From NCBI GenBank assembly GCA_900319275.1, contig ONNS01000064.1, forward strand, positions 1-37,861: a DNA stretch of 37,861 nucleotides. Direction: 5' to 3'. This document shows, in pieces, positions 4,006 through 37,861 of the stretch (within the stretch, counting starts at the first letter, position 1; every line of letters begins with the position of its first letter). This stretch comes from an uncultured Eubacteriales bacterium (lineage in GTDB: Bacteria > Bacillota > Clostridia > Oscillospirales > Oscillospiraceae). Position numbers and translations under genes: made by a program. The notes under the pieces were generated by a model. The model searched no databases, was not told the DNA's origin, and was given only the letters and a program-made list of their open reading frames with translations.

Positions 4006-4193
4006 TATAACTTTGTCTCCACGTCCGCCAGCGGCGGACGTAAGCGGGCGGCAGCCCGCAACTGACGCACTTCGTGCGCCAGTTGGAGACGACGTTGCAA
4101 CGATATCCCCGAAAAACACAGACCGTTCTGTGTTTTTCATGCGAAATGCCGTTTCGCATGCGCGCATTTCATGCGCGCGGGGATTTAGTTATA
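4006..4193 (+). repeat. Tandem four-way-junction repeat, copy A
   Basis: Termini TATAACT (4006-4012) and AGTTATA (4187-4193) are inverted. Junction 1: outer stem GTCTCC (4015-4020)/GGAGAC (4085-4090) encloses hairpins at 4021-4041 (loop AGC), 4044-4059 (loop GGCA) and 4060-4084 (loop TTC). A linker containing GTTGCAAC follows. Junction 2: outer stem ATCCCC (4105-4110)/GGGGAT (4179-4184) encloses hairpins at 4111-4138, 4139-4159 and 4160-4178. Almost no base is left unpaired. The right terminus supplies the stop codon of the ParE-type toxin gene. Confidence 0.9.
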
Positions 4194-4503
4194 CGATTCT
4201 TGACAGATCGCGCCTGCTGTAGACCAGCGTACGAACCTCCATCACATGCCCGATCACCACATAAAATACAAAATAATTCTTCACCGGAATTGCGTAATAG
4301 TTCTGCTCACGGTCTTTCTTTGACCGATACGGCTCGAAGGCCTCCGGCGCTTTTAAGCGCTCGTAAATGGCCGTCTCTACCGCATCGAGGAAGTCGGCGG
4401 CGGCAATCGGATTGTGCAGGCGGAGGGCGATATAATCCACTGTTTCCTGCAGCTTCTCTTCGAAGAGCGGCAGGATTTTTAACTCATAGTGTTTTTCGTC
4501 CAT
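4189..4503 (-). CDS. RelE/ParE-family toxin
   Basis: The 104-aa protein has the RelE/ParE fold pattern: an N-terminal helix pair (LPLFEEKLQETVDYIA...NPIAAADFLDAVETAI), a central YYAIPVKNYFVFYVV strand and a C-terminal VMEVRTLVYSRRDLSRIV with the family's basic residues. ParE-type toxins poison gyrase and RelE types cleave mRNA; the sequence does not decide between them. It starts inside the end of the antitoxin gene (20-nt overlap), the usual antitoxin-toxin order. Its TAA stop is provided by the terminal TATAACT of the adjacent hairpin repeat, so the native C-terminus may have been slightly altered when the repeat arrived. Confidence 0.9.
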   Translation of the reverse strand: MDEKHYELKILPLFEEKLQETVDYIALRLHNPIAAADFLDAVETAIYERLKAPEAFEPYRSKKDREQNYYAIPVKNYFVFYVVIGHVMEVRTLVYSRRDLSRIV

Positions 4504-10976: not shown

Positions 10977-11519
10977 TTAGCTCTCCATCTGCTTGCCGAG
11001 GAAGCTGGCGCAGGTCTGGGCCAGCTTGTACTCCACCTCGCCGCCCGGCGGGCTGTTGCGCGGCGTGAGGAACATCACGCAGCCGAGCACGTCCCCCTCG
11101 CTGATAACCGGCGCGGCCACCGACAGGCAGAATTTCTCGTCACCCTCAGACGCCGGCAGACTGCTGCCGCCGCTCTCCTGGCGGTAGATCGAACGGTTGT
11201 CCATGATCTCGCACAGCTGCGCGCTGATGGGCTTTTCCAGCAGCTCGCGCTTCCCGCCGCCCGACACCGCAATGATCGAGTCCCGGTCGCACACCGCGGC
11301 CATCTCGTCCGTGCTGCGCCGCAGACTGTCGCAGATCTGCGCCGCGAAATCCGACAGCTCCCCCACCGGGGAGTATTTCTTGAAAATCAGCTCGCCCTCT
11401 TTGTCGGTGAAAATCTCCAGCGGGTCACCCTCGCGGATACGCATGGTGCGGCGGATCTCCTTCGGGATCACGACGCGGCCCAGGTCGTCGATCCGCCGCA
11501 CGATTCCAGTTGCTTTCAT
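10977..11519 (-). CDS. spoVT: Stage V sporulation protein T (SpoVT), AbrB-family regulator
   Basis: The 180-aa protein starts MKATGIVRRIDDLGRVVIPK, the SpoVT/AbrB swapped-hairpin DNA-binding domain (residues 1-50). A GAF-like sensor domain follows (about 55-178), with LSDFAAQICDSLRRSTDEMA and CLSVAAPVISEGDVLGCVMF. Length fits B. subtilis SpoVT (178 aa). It tunes forespore sigma-G dependent genes, so the host is very likely a spore former. The ATG at 11519 has AGGAGG 9 nt upstream, but that ribosome site lies in the 3' arm of a strong hairpin (11528-11574), suggesting translational control. Two shortened paralogues (16126-16302 and 18744-18920) copy its N-terminus and leader. Confidence 0.96.
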   Translation of the reverse strand: MKATGIVRRIDDLGRVVIPKEIRRTMRIREGDPLEIFTDKEGELIFKKYSPVGELSDFAAQICDSLRRSTDEMAAVCDRDSIIAVSGGGKRELLEKPISAQLCEIMDNRSIYRQESGGSSLPASEGDEKFCLSVAAPVISEGDVLGCVMFLTPRNSPPGGEVEYKLAQTCASFLGKQMES

Positions 11520-11527
11520 ATGCAAAA

Positions 11528-11574
11528 TCCTCCTGCGTTTCTATCTCATGTCTCAGATAGTATTTGCAGGAGGA
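11528..11574 (-). promoter_or_regulatory. Ribosome-site-sequestering hairpin in the spoVT leader
   Basis: In mRNA sense (minus strand), TCCTCCTGC pairs with GCAGGAGGA, and CTATCT pairs with AGATAG further in. The 3' arm contains the whole spoVT ribosome site. Related hairpins occur at 13524-13576, 16311-16357 and 18929-18970. Confidence 0.8.
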
Positions 11575-11640
11575 AATATGTTATGCACGGGCGGCAGATA
11601 TGCGTACGCTGTCTGTCGCGGCAGTTCGAAAAAATATACT

Positions 11641-11669
11641 TTGTGTTTTCCCGTCGATTATGCTATGCT
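11641..11669 (+). promoter_or_regulatory. Promoter of the repeat lipoprotein gene
   Basis: TTGTGT (11641-11646), a 17-bp spacer and TATGCT (11664-11669). Transcription would start near 11676, which favours the ATG at 11703 over the one at 11676. Confidence 0.55.
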
Positions 11670-11702
11670 GAAAACATGAAAAAACAGGAAAGAAGGGGCA
11701 AC

Positions 11703-13517
11703 ATGAAAAAGGTGGTTTCCCTCCTGCTGCTCGTCATTCTCTGCCTTGGCCTGTGCGCCTGCGAAAACAGCGGCGGCGCCAGCCTTGGCACGGTGGTGTG
11801 GGAAAAAGCGTATTATCTCGACGCTTTCAACGATCCGACCGAGGAATACTATATCGGTACCGCCAAGAGGTTGAACGGCAGCTACAGCAGCAAAAGCGTA
11901 ACGGACGGCGTGCTGGAGGCCGAGATCCGTGTGGACGCGCAGATCGTTTCGATCTTTCTCTATGAAAACGGCACAGATCTCGTCAAAAACGGCGATCAAT
12001 CCTCCATTGCATTCTCCGTGCAGATGAAGGCCGCGGACGGGAGCAAGACGCAGCTCTACGGCGAAATGGCCAGCGGCGGGGACTGCGTGGAAATCTGGGA
12101 GGATCAGACGCAAAGCGTCCTGCATTTTGAAGGCAGAGAGCCGCAGGAGAACCCCGTTGCCACAGCGTTCTGCGCCGAGGACGGCGAGGTCAGCTTCTAT
12201 CTCACGCGGGAGGATCAGCCCGCGACGAGCTATCTCTTCACGGTCAAAACCGGGAACTTTGCCGCGCTTTATGAGACGGAGATCGCGACGCCGATCCGGG
12301 AGCGGGCCTATGCCCGGGCGGAGTCCCTGCTCGAAGTGAAGGACTACGGCGAAGCGATCCGTTGGTTTACGGCGCTGGGAGATTTCCGCGACAGCACCAC
12401 ACGGGTGACCAAAGCTACGAATGCGGCGCAGTACGCACAGGCGGAGGCCTTGCTCGAGGCGAAGGACTACAACGGCGCGATCGCGGCGTTTACGGCCTTG
12501 GGAGATTACCAGGATAGCGCCGCGAGAGCGGAAGAGGCGCGCACGGAACAATACGCCCGTGCGGAGGCATTGCTCGAGGCAAAGGAATATACACGCGCGA
12601 TCGCGGCGTTTACGGCGCTGGGTGATTATCGCGACAGCGTCGCACGTGTGAACGAGGCGAGAGATGCGCAGGAAAGACTGCACTCGCTGCGTATTGAATT
12701 GAGAAAAAAGACGATAGCTGCAGGCGGGCTTCAAACCGTAGGGCTGATAGCGGACGGCAGCGTCGTCGCCGTGGGAGATAACGAAGACGGCCGGTGCGAG
12801 GTCTCCGGCTGGAGAGATATCGTCGCCGTGGCCGCGGCTTTCGGGCATACCGTCGGACTGAAGGCGGACGGCAGCGTCGTCGCTGTGGGGTATAATGAAT
12901 ACGGTCAGTGTGAGGTCTCCGGCTGGACCGATATTGTTGCTGTGTCCGCGGGCTGGCATCACACTGTCGGACTGAATACGGAAGGAAGAGTCGTCGCCGT
13001 GGGATCTAACACAGATGGCCAATGCGAAGTCTCCGGCTGGTCGGGCATCGTTAATGTAGCTGCGAATGGCTTGCACACCGTGGGTTTGAAGGTGGATGGT
13101 ACCGTCGTCGCCGTGGGATCTAACAAAGATGGCCGATGCGAGGTCTCCGACTGGACCGAAATTGTCGATGTGGCCGCAGGAAGAACTCACACCGTGGGGC
13201 TGAGAGCAGACGGAACGGTCGTTGCAGTGGGAAATAATGAATACGGTCAGTGCGAGACATCCAGCTGGACCGAAATTGTCGATGTGGCTGCAGGAAGAAC
13301 TCACACCGTAGGGCTGAGAGCAGATGGAACGGTCGTTGCCGTTGGAAATAATGAATACGGCCAGTGCGAGGTCTCCGGTTGGATCGATATTGTCGCTGTG
13401 GCCGCGGGCTATTATCACACCATCGGGCTGCGGGCGGACGGCAGCGTCGTCGCTGCGGGGTATAATAAAGACGGCGAGTGCGAGGTCTCTGACTGGACCG
13501 ATATCCGCCTGCCCTGA
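11703..13517 (+). CDS. Lipoprotein with TPR-like and RCC1-like repeats
   Basis: About 604 aa. The N-terminus MKKVVSLLLLVILCLGLCAC is a lipoprotein signal with lipobox L-C-A-C, so the mature protein is anchored on the outer face of the membrane. A region of about 170 residues without a recognised domain follows. Next come three TPR-like units of about 40 residues (AEALLEAKDYNGAIAAFTALG type) and then seven RCC1-like units of about 38-39 residues (HTVGLRADGTVVAVGNNEYG, then QCEVSGWTDIVAVAAG). RCC1 units build a beta-propeller, here probably a surface binding module (inference). Units 5 and 6 are nearly identical in DNA, suggesting recent duplication. AAGGGG lies 4 nt before the ATG. It is divergent from spoVT. 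Confidence 0.88.
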   Translation: MKKVVSLLLLVILCLGLCACENSGGASLGTVVWEKAYYLDAFNDPTEEYYIGTAKRLNGSYSSKSVTDGVLEAEIRVDAQIVSIFLYENGTDLVKNGDQSSIAFSVQMKAADGSKTQLYGEMASGGDCVEIWEDQTQSVLHFEGREPQENPVATAFCAEDGEVSFYLTREDQPATSYLFTVKTGNFAALYETEIATPIRERAYARAESLLEVKDYGEAIRWFTALGDFRDSTTRVTKATNAAQYAQAEALLEAKDYNGAIAAFTALGDYQDSAARAEEARTEQYARAEALLEAKEYTRAIAAFTALGDYRDSVARVNEARDAQERLHSLRIELRKKTIAAGGLQTVGLIADGSVVAVGDNEDGRCEVSGWRDIVAVAAAFGHTVGLKADGSVVAVGYNEYGQCEVSGWTDIVAVSAGWHHTVGLNTEGRVVAVGSNTDGQCEVSGWSGIVNVAANGLHTVGLKVDGTVVAVGSNKDGRCEVSDWTEIVDVAAGRTHTVGLRADGTVVAVGNNEYGQCETSSWTEIVDVAAGRTHTVGLRADGTVVAVGNNEYGQCEVSGWIDIVAVAAGYYHTIGLRADGSVVAAGYNKDGECEVSDWTDIRLP

Positions 13518-19445: not shown

Positions 19446-19647
19446 CTATATTTTCGTCTCCAATCGCTGAAAGCGATTTGGGAAAAACAATGTTTTTCCC
19501 AATCCTTTGCATGTCTTCATGCAAAGGATCGGAGACTACAATGCAATTTATTCCCAATACACGCCTTACGGCGTGTATACAGAGAAGTTACAGAGAAGTT
19601 TTAACTTCTCTGTGGCGGCGTTTCGCCGCCTAGGGAATAAATTATAG
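19446..19647. repeat. Tandem four-way-junction repeat, divergent copy
   Basis: Ends CTATATTTT and AAATTATAG are inverted at 8 of 9 positions. Junction 1: GTCTCC (19456-19461)/GGAGAC (19531-19536) encloses hairpins 19462-19478 (7 bp), 19479-19501 (10 bp) and 19502-19529 (12 bp) with one unpaired base. Junction 2: an 11-bp stem, AATTTATTCCC (19545-19555)/GGGAATAAATT (19633-19643), encloses hairpins 19557-19578, 19590-19613 and 19614-19630. An extra tandem copy of ACAGAGAAGTT lies at 19579-19589. Topology and the first outer stem match copy A; the inner hairpin sequences do not. Confidence 0.85.
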
Positions 19648-32076: not shown

Positions 32077-32753
32077 TGGAAAGCCGGATGACGCGGCGCG
32101 AGACGCTGCTGGCCCTGCTGTGGCTGCCAATCCATGTGTTCGGCCTGCCGCTGCTCGGAACCGCGCTTTACCAGCGCGGCACGCTGACGCTCGGGCAGAT
32201 CAACCTTCTGGTCTATGGGATCGGCGCGCTCTATATGGTGGCGGTACAGTTCGGCTTTCTGCGGCGCGATTTCGACACGCTGTGCGACAATGCCCCGGTG
32301 GTCTGTATTGAAGTCGGCCGGAGCTTTGCACTGCTGTTTATCAGCAGTCTCCTCGTGACGGGACTCTTTGAGCGCGTCGGTCTCACACAGAACGAAAACA
32401 ATGACGCGGTCTACGCCATGGCCACAACGGAGCTCGGCCCGATCGCGGCCGCGGGCACTTTTCTGGCGCCTTTTGTCGAGGAGTGCATCTTCCGCGGCGC
32501 GATCTTCGGCTCTCTGCGGCGGAAAAACCGCGCGCTCGCGTATATCGTCAGCGTACTGCTGTTCTCGCTCTACCACGTGTGGCAGTCGGCGCTTTTCGAT
32601 CCGATGCAGCTGCTGTATCTGCTGCAATATATCCCGGCCTCGCTGATCCTGGTGCGCTGCTACGAGCGCTGCGACAGCATCTGGGGCGTGATTTTCGTAC
32701 ACATGCTCAACAACGGCCTGCCGATGCTGGCCATATCGTATCTGAATCCATAA
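32076..32753 (+). CDS. CPBP-family intramembrane metalloprotease
   Basis: The 225-aa, multi-pass membrane protein carries the CPBP/CAAX motifs: EECIFRG (E-E-x3-R type), FSLYHVWQS (F-x3-H) and HMLNNGLPML (H-x3-N). It may process prenylated or signal peptides, or confer bacteriocin immunity; the substrate is unknown. The ATG overlaps the mutS stop (TGATG), so it is coupled. Its TAA stop lies inside the terminal TAACT of hairpin repeat copy B, so the native C-terminus may have been altered by the insertion. Confidence 0.88.
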   Translation: MESRMTRRETLLALLWLPIHVFGLPLLGTALYQRGTLTLGQINLLVYGIGALYMVAVQFGFLRRDFDTLCDNAPVVCIEVGRSFALLFISSLLVTGLFERVGLTQNENNDAVYAMATTELGPIAAAGTFLAPFVEECIFRGAIFGSLRRKNRALAYIVSVLLFSLYHVWQSALFDPMQLLYLLQYIPASLILVRCYERCDSIWGVIFVHMLNNGLPMLAISYLNP

Positions 32754-32932
32754 CTAAATCCCCGCGCGCATGAAATGCGCGCATGCGAAACGCTGTTTCG
32801 CATAAAAAACGCAGAATACTCTGTGTTTTTTGGGGATACCGTTGCAACGTCGTCTCCAACTGACGCACGTTGTGCGTCAGTTGCGGGCTATTGCCCGCTT
32901 ACGTCCGCCGCTGGCGGACGTGGAGACAAAGT
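32750..32932 (-). repeat. Tandem four-way-junction repeat, copy B
   Basis: Inverse orientation to copy A. Junction 2 stem ATCCCC (32758-32763)/GGGGAT (32832-32837) and junction 1 stem GTCTCC (32852-32857)/GGAGAC (32922-32927) each enclose three hairpins. The ATAACT end is kept at 32750 but the other end stops at ACAAAGT and joins trmO coding sequence directly. Stems match copy A almost base for base; most differences fall in hairpin loops. Confidence 0.9.
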
Positions 32933-33533
32933 GGTCGGGAGCCTGACGGCGCGCATCGTGTTTGAACCGGCATACCGCAATGCCGACGCCCTGCGCGGGC
33001 TCGAGGGTTTTTCCCACATCTGGCTGATCTGGCAGTTTTCAGCCAATCTCCGCGAGAACTGGCGGCCGACCGTGCGCCCGCCGCGCCTCGGCGGCAACGA
33101 GCGCATGGGCGTGTTTGCCACGCGCTCGCCGTTTCGGCCCAACGCCCTGGGGCTGAGCTGCGTAAAGCTGCTCGGCATTGAGCCGAGCGCGGACGGCCCG
33201 GTGCTCACAGTCGCCGGGGCCGATCTGATGGACGGGACGCCGATCTTCGACATCAAGCCCTATCTGCCCTACGCCGACTGTATACCTGATGCCACCGGCG
33301 GCTTCGCGCCGGACAGCGGGGCGAAGCTCGCGGTCACGATCCCGGAGACGCTGCTGCAAAAGGTCCCGGCGGACAAGCGCGAGGCTCTGCGCGGCGTGCT
33401 CGAAAACGACCCGCGCCCGCGCTACCAGGACGACAGCGCGCGCGTCTATAAGCTCGACTTTGCCGGGCTGCACATCGAATTTCAGGTAGACGGCCGGGCG
33501 CTCCGCGTGACTGACATAAGGCATCTGATATAG
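32933..33533 (+). pseudogene. trmO: TrmO (TsaA) family tRNA methyltransferase, 5'-truncated by repeat copy B
   Basis: From SLTARIVFEPAYRNADALRG on, this is a good TrmO/TsaA: GLEGFSHIWLIWQF, GVFATRSPFRPNALGLSCVK, DLMDGTPIFDIKPYLPYAD and a full C-terminal half. The first 30 or so residues of the family, including the N-terminal strand and the IPRQ-type segment involved in S-adenosylmethionine binding, are missing. The frame remains open into the hairpin repeat as far as 32775, giving an artificial N-terminus with no ribosome site. TrmO methylates N6-threonylcarbamoyl-A37 in some tRNAs. I expect loss of function, unless another start is used. Confidence 0.8.
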
Positions 33534-37663: not shown

Positions 37664-37813
37664 CAAAAAGGGGCTGTTGCAAAATGCGGATTAGCTGCAC
37701 AAATTATGGTTCTGCCGTAGGGGAGGGGCTTGCCCCTCCCGCGCACGCAAATGTATAAATTTGCAAATAATGTACGGCGCAATCGCAAAATTGCTGCGAT
37801 TGCGCCGTACATT
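37664..37813. repeat. Mobile-element end and long perfect hairpin
   Basis: AAGGGGCTGTTGCAAAATG (about 37666-37684) matches the MITE end at 3131 at most positions. A GAGGGGC/GCCCCTC palindrome lies near 37723-37740. A perfect 19-bp stem (37769-37787 with 37795-37813) with a 7-nt loop closes the stretch. No gene is seen. Confidence 0.65.
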
Positions 37814-37816
37814 GTC

Positions 37817-37861
37817 TATAACTTTGTCTCCACGTCCGCCGTTGGCGGACGTAAGCGGGCA
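37817..37861 (+). repeat. Tandem four-way-junction repeat, copy C (cut by window end)
   Basis: TATAACT (37817-37823), GTCTCC (37826-37831) and the first hairpin ACGTCCGCC/GGCGGACGT (37832-37852) match copy A, but the loop is GTT instead of AGC. The second hairpin starts GCGGGCA and is cut off. Confidence 0.85.

Follow-up and report, generated by a model that had tools for sequence, protein, structure and literature searches.

The closest described systems in behaviour, as far as the available portions of the sources go, are the bcr repeats of Bacillus cereus and the GC clusters of yeast mitochondria. The group A repeats of B. cereus (bcr1-bcr3) belong to the BCRs of 100-400 bp, and bcr1 averages 39 copies per strain (PMC6542083). 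The GC clusters are palindromic mobile units with AG or ACT direct repeats that resemble a target duplication; the best studied are 42 bp long. Changes occur mainly in their loops; merger, shuffling and horizontal exchange have been described, and the mechanism of amplification was still under debate in that source (PMC4478555). The REP/BIME and CGTC-tagged palindromes are 20-40 bp, occur singly or as dimers, and carry a tag tetranucleotide at one end (PMC3733652). The stem-loop families of 40 bacterial genomes have a predicted common fold, in some of them on both strands; Efa-1 and Pae-1 consist of two adjacent hairpins (PMC2267715).

The window analysed here is the whole stretch of 37,861 nucleotides of the host contig. 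It contains a 188-bp repeat, the twin-cloverleaf element (copy A), whose parts are listed in Table 1. An earlier note, made from the sequence alone, had read this repeat as two tandem four-way junctions, each with an outer stem and three hairpins. Its coordinates, stems and termini agreed with the sequence, and the fold was far beyond chance when checked, as that note proposed, on both strands and with DNA parameters. As RNA, copy A reached -105.7 kcal/mol (z -11.3), and none of 200 shuffles was as good; the minus strand as RNA gave z -11.4. As DNA the z-score was -11.0, and the TATAACT/AGTTATA ends were paired too. The first junction has two unpaired bases (AA); the second is fully paired. 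The linker palindrome GTTGCAAC formed a seventh hairpin of 3 bp in the DNA and minus-strand folds. The terminal inverted repeats are 14 bp and imperfect, with four differing positions; ATAACTWWRTCYCC is present at both ends.

Table 1. Features of the twin-cloverleaf element and related repeats; positions refer to the window unless a locus (L) is named.
Feature	Position	Strand	Description and basis
Full twin-cloverleaf element, copy A	4006..4193	+	188 bp; sequence, RNA and DNA folds, BLAST copies
Left terminus TATAACT	4006..4012	+	sequence; DNA fold; counts of ATAACTWWRTCYCC
Inserted unit of copy A, probably AACT...AGTT	4009-4190	+	putatively duplicated AT on both flanks; junction comparison
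Cloverleaf A, outer stem GTCTCC/GGAGAC	4015..4090	+	stem 4015-4020 with 4085-4090; folds, alignments
Cloverleaf A hairpins	4021-4041, 4044-4059, 4060-4084	+	folds, alignments
Linker with small palindrome GTTGCAAC	4091..4104	+	DNA fold; corresponds to family G linker GGAGACKACRWTGCAA
Cloverleaf B, outer stem ATCCCC/GGGGAT	4105..4184	+	stem 4105-4110 with 4179-4184; folds, alignments
Cloverleaf B hairpins	4111-4138, 4139-4159, 4160-4178	+	folds, alignments
Right terminus AGTTATA	4187..4193	+	sequence
Copy B	32750..32932	-	left end truncated, ATA lost; BLAST
Copy C, partial	37817..37861	+	runs into contig end; inside family H repeat
Family G element	19447..19646	+	same skeleton, unrelated hairpins; two four-way junctions in fold
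Family K	L074:2395-2600, L166:1501-1662, L169:1501-1661		multi-hairpin element
Family H	37670-37816; L013, L021, L036, L050, L053		repeat, apparent end GGGGCTGTTGCAAAAT

No element with six hairpins in two closed four-way junctions was found in the consulted portion of the openly licensed literature, within the words searched, and no Rfam match was obtained in the window at the gathering score. Both results agree with the earlier statement that no named element has this design. The bcr repeats are like the element in their mobility, in having a short junction motif and in that no transposase is named; however, the motif differs, and a twin cloverleaf is not stated in the available part of the source, with the comparison made by description only (PMC6542083). 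The GC clusters are also mobile and show a short junction motif, merger and shuffling of palindromes; but they belong to an organelle, and the available text describes no pair of closed four-way junctions, again in a comparison by description only (PMC4478555). The CGTC families are high-copy palindromes with no known transposase, as is the element, whereas no twin junction is described for REP/BIME in the portion consulted. A REP/BIME unit was rejected as an identification: such units are 20-40 bp with a GTAG or CGTC tag at one end, and the element is 188 bp with ATAACT at both ends (PMC3733652). Among the stem-loop families, the accessible text describes none with six hairpins in two closed junctions (PMC2267715). 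Prokaryotic MITEs, as the available part of PMC10969869 describes them, are similarly short and gene-free, with terminal inverted repeats, many intergenic copies and a stable fold. The element is different in its short, imperfect ends, its interior of two closed four-way junctions and its probable AT duplication; no parent IS was found, and a sister family has the same skeleton with other hairpins.

Similar copies with fixed ends are dispersed in the host genome, a 3.04-Mb draft of 161 contigs. BLAST gave 44 matches to the element, which were merged by hand into 33 places, including intact copies, truncated ones, and ones reduced to one 51-bp hairpin. Many copies lie at contig ends (such as C28, C69, C72, C79, C103, C143 and the window end), which indicates that the repeat breaks the assembly; some halves may therefore be one copy. 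Copies within family H repeats may have travelled with H, so the 33 places do not represent 33 independent insertions. The 16 longest host rows share 86-100% pairwise identity (median 92%). An exact ATAACTWWRTCYCC was found at 48 host sites, 47 of them at copies; the control gave 0. Of the solo end-like sites, the five that were inspected look like chance or unrelated stems: C140, C72 and C151 in the host, C89 in NK3B98 and C190 in RUG11160.

A scan of public genome contigs identified nine stretches in four assemblies (RUG11160, NK3B98, RUG11929, and RGIG6858). RUG11160 has about 14 places, 13 by the covariance model (merged by hand) and one by its end only; the other three have one copy each. 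The copy search proposed earlier thus extended the repeat to the host genome, RUG11160 and three more assemblies. A RUG11160 contig shares about 85% identity with the host genome across 2.7 kb of flanking sequence. The NK3B98 copy has 99.4% identity to host copy L021 over 169 aligned positions and 98.9% to L013 over 186; such near-identical sequences point to a recent transfer. By BLAST, none of 39 relatives (24 from the host genus) gave a match. The covariance model found no copy in 393 other genomes; this negative is weak, because the filters were strict, six candidates were scored in each genome listed, and just six host copies were recovered. The skeleton pattern matched three of 400 genomes of the host's family, namely the host, G597 and G601; the latter two matches lie in coding DNA and look like chance. 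Among phages, plasmids and viral contigs, none matched the element.

Comparison of occupied and empty sites, available at three sites, showed that the element inserts into pre-existing sequence. L013, inside family H, was compared with the H copy on C145 (L053/L057; 97% over 124 bp of joined flanks); L021 was compared with L036, also in an H repeat (94% over joined flanks). Both H empty sites hold AT once. The L011 copy lies within a DUF3793 gene, splitting it into an N-terminal part (1-127 of PF12672) and a C-terminal part (124-166); the RUG11929 homologue (L117) is uninterrupted. The four bases at the equivalent site there are TACA, which supports the 4-base length of the site, but not AT itself. 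The earlier note had looked to empty sites in sister strains; those compared here are two paralogous sites and one cross-species gene. Empty sites were also sought across genomes for the RUG11160 and RGIG6858 insertions, with no clean two-flank alignment. The joined flanks of L005 match elsewhere at 75%; this is a shared hairpin-rich flank, and no empty site.

AT adjoins every intact end (columns 2-3 and 187-188 of alignment A3, described below), with the exception of the truncated copy B. A few copies have point changes in the bases beyond the AT. A T precedes the AT in 18 of 30 rows, and an A follows it in 21 of 31. Since the H empty sites hold a single AT, where duplication of TA would call for two further bases, the unit was taken as AACT...AGTT with a 2-bp AT duplication. 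On these alignments, the junctions fit a target duplication of AT, mostly within T-AT-A. MITEs of IS630/Tc1-type transposons, such as the Correia and RUP elements, duplicate TA. An origin of this kind would be in keeping with the TATA-like ends, size, and copy number, but is unlikely: it predicts two bases more at the empty H site than are present, and DDE_3 (PF13358) was not found in the host draft genome (control matches in 3 of 14 genomes).

Several genes adjoin the copies. A minus-strand ParE-like ORF (4189-4503) ends with the TAA in the right terminus of copy A; at copy B, the element also supplies the stop codon of the upstream Rce1-like protease ORF. Copy B joins the 5' side of a TrmO-like gene (window 32750-33533). 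This ORF starts inside copy B, which encodes 52-53 residues at its beginning; the TrmO_N match begins after this part, at profile position 8 of 116. From its sequence, the ORF might be a chimeric or 5'-truncated gene. Elsewhere in the window, a gene at 11520-13517 has RCC1-type repeats (PF13540), among them one tandem repeat of 114 bp that is seen in the DNA itself. A 167-bp sequence is found three times (11421, 16204, and 18822). The copy at 11421 is located at the start of the RCC1-repeat gene, and the other two share 92% and 75% identity with it; these may be a repeated gene start or remnants.

The structure used for the covariation analysis was taken from one aligned copy. Alignment A3 has 42 rows, leaving out L029, L030, L031, L032, and L033 of the host, and C78, C85 and the second C16 copy of RUG11160. 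In the 28 host rows, 97.8% of 1688 cells are paired. Two-sided changes occur at three pairs, a level that 193 of 500 shuffles reach (2.2 in the shuffles); by cells there are 16, against 5.8, exceeding every shuffle. Covariation within the host rows alone is modest. With the other assemblies added (42 rows), 98.0% of 2308 cells are paired. Two-sided changes now occur at 11 pairs, a number reached by none of 500 shuffles (2.5 in the shuffles); the slid controls give 0-5. This is in line with the covarying stems that the earlier note looked for. The divergent RGIG6858 copy retains 60 of 73 compared pairs; among the 13 changed pairs, eight are two-sided Watson-Crick changes and five are unpaired on the + strand. 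The paired columns deviate in 2.5% of cells (123/4861), and the unpaired columns in 15.0% (179/1190). The stems are preserved by two-sided changes across species, and the loops drift. Palindrome correction by template switching, with no selection, could also be a source of the two-sided changes.

A strong fold and two-sided pair changes would also be expected of a structured RNA gene or a cis-regulatory RNA, multicopy by chance, and MITE transcripts commonly fold stably, according to the available part of PMC10969869. Such an RNA is nevertheless very improbable. Neither strand folds better than the other, which speaks for DNA and against RNA. Outside the terminal helix, G-U pairs of the + strand were found in 14 cells (12 types), and A-C pairs, equivalent to G-U on the other strand, in 33 cells (11 types). 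The + strand is therefore not favoured as RNA, and by cells the deviating pairs lean to the minus strand. Moreover, one copy interrupts a gene, no Rfam hit was obtained, and family G (below) retains the skeleton but not the hairpin sequences. Between the two possibilities raised earlier, a mobile element or a structured RNA, the copies, empty sites and compensated stems thus favour a mobile, structured, non-autonomous element, and the RNA is disfavoured.

Family G was found via the flanks of L004, L009, and L031. Its DNA fold (19446-19644) has two four-way junctions and a z-score of -17.0. The ends, the GTCTCC/GGAGAC outer stem, the linker (GGAGACKACRWTGCAA), and the second stem all correspond to those of the twin-cloverleaf element; the hairpins are different. 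The skeleton is identical at 42 of 56 positions in a hand-made alignment, and the block score is 36/46, against a best score of 31 in one 380-kb mononucleotide window shuffle. The host genome contains eight family G copies with an exact GTCTCC/GGAGAC stem; the listed hits of the four other assemblies include none. A second family with the same framework but other hairpins suggests that the shape itself matters for movement. Family K is a looser third family, with three hairpins and a stem carrying two more (z -10.9); its best copy ends in ATACT...AGTAT. It is found in RGIG6858, the host genome, and RUG11160, where it is cut by the contig end. Family H has G+C-rich hairpins, gives 50 host-genome matches to one 89-base piece, and hosts twin-cloverleaf copies at several places. 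On C85 of RUG11160 (L111:1-105), the right end of the element is abutted by other sequence ending in GACAGCCCC; an H-like element may have inserted there in nested fashion.

Size variants and fusions were also found. Two places consist of the 51-bp hairpin only, each side of which is made up of the left end plus hairpin 1. A 137-bp variant has no hairpins 4 and 5, and another has no linker. C78 of RUG11160 apparently has cloverleaf A alone between the ends, as judged by eye. Elements joined end to end with a common TATA are located on C112 and C80 and in L004 and L009; on C88, a family G element is fused to a truncated twin-cloverleaf copy. The whole-hairpin losses and the fusions, together with possible palindrome correction, are what a passive palindrome would produce, spreading by recombination or template switching at replication-slippage hot spots, with no enzyme. 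The fixed ends at unrelated sites, the single AT at the H empty sites, and the 99.4% identical copy in another genome make this quite unlikely.

The best explanation, with a probability of about 80%, is that the twin-cloverleaf element is mobile DNA of a non-autonomous, MITE-like type, with conserved ends and branched shape and with replaceable hairpins. As in MITEs, it is short and non-coding, with many dispersed copies, terminal inverted repeats, and a probable target duplication for which empty sites are available. An enzyme provided in trans might recognise the termini and the adjoining outer stems, cut with a 2-bp stagger, and join the element to an AT. The DNA itself would form the branched fold, either single-stranded at the replication fork or by extrusion, and the fold might be retained as it aids recognition or escape from repair. 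The hairpins would be replaceable modules; the elements would shorten through whole-hairpin loss and become joined at their ends through a common TATA. A DDE transposase that cuts with a 2-bp stagger would fit, and so would a serine recombinase whose crossover is AT. The latter may be possible since the joined ends, as inferred, would read AGTT-AT-AACT. In the five assemblies, which are fragmented at repeats, inspection by eye at up to one mismatch found no inward-facing end pair around a gene that might represent an autonomous partner.

Movement of REP/BIME-type palindromes by a RAYT (Y1 HUH transposase) was considered as well. The host genome has two Y1_Tnp matches, and the copies are palindromic and, based on ORFs, mostly intergenic. 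However, no part of the element lies at either host Y1 locus (10-base matches only), and no Y1 match was obtained in RUG11160, where the element has about 14 places. Nor is the IS200/IS605 reaction expected to give inverted ends and duplication of AT. This explanation is thus highly unlikely. As a separate observation, a host Y1 (RAYT-like) transposase gene (L122:1336-1830) contains two REP-like palindromes within its reading frame (GTAGGGGCGACC..., ...GGTCGCCCCTAC).

Within the MITE-like reading, a more speculative proposal is that the mobile DNA is inherited by shape. One machinery, possibly a serine recombinase with an AT crossover, would read the termini, two outer stems and linker of the twin junction, and the six hairpins would be exchangeable whatever their sequence; family G, and loosely family K, would be included. 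This is possible, but rather doubtful at present.

In summary, the element is real, mobile and structured, and most likely acts at the DNA level. Its sister family is unusual. In practice, the element disrupts short-read assemblies, many copies being located at contig ends. If the proposed reading is true, it would be a bacterial mobile element in which the branched DNA fold, rather than the sequence, is preserved, in parallel with the yeast mitochondrial GC clusters as they appear in the consulted part of PMC4478555. Since two families have a common skeleton and different hairpins, recognition by shape would be directly testable.
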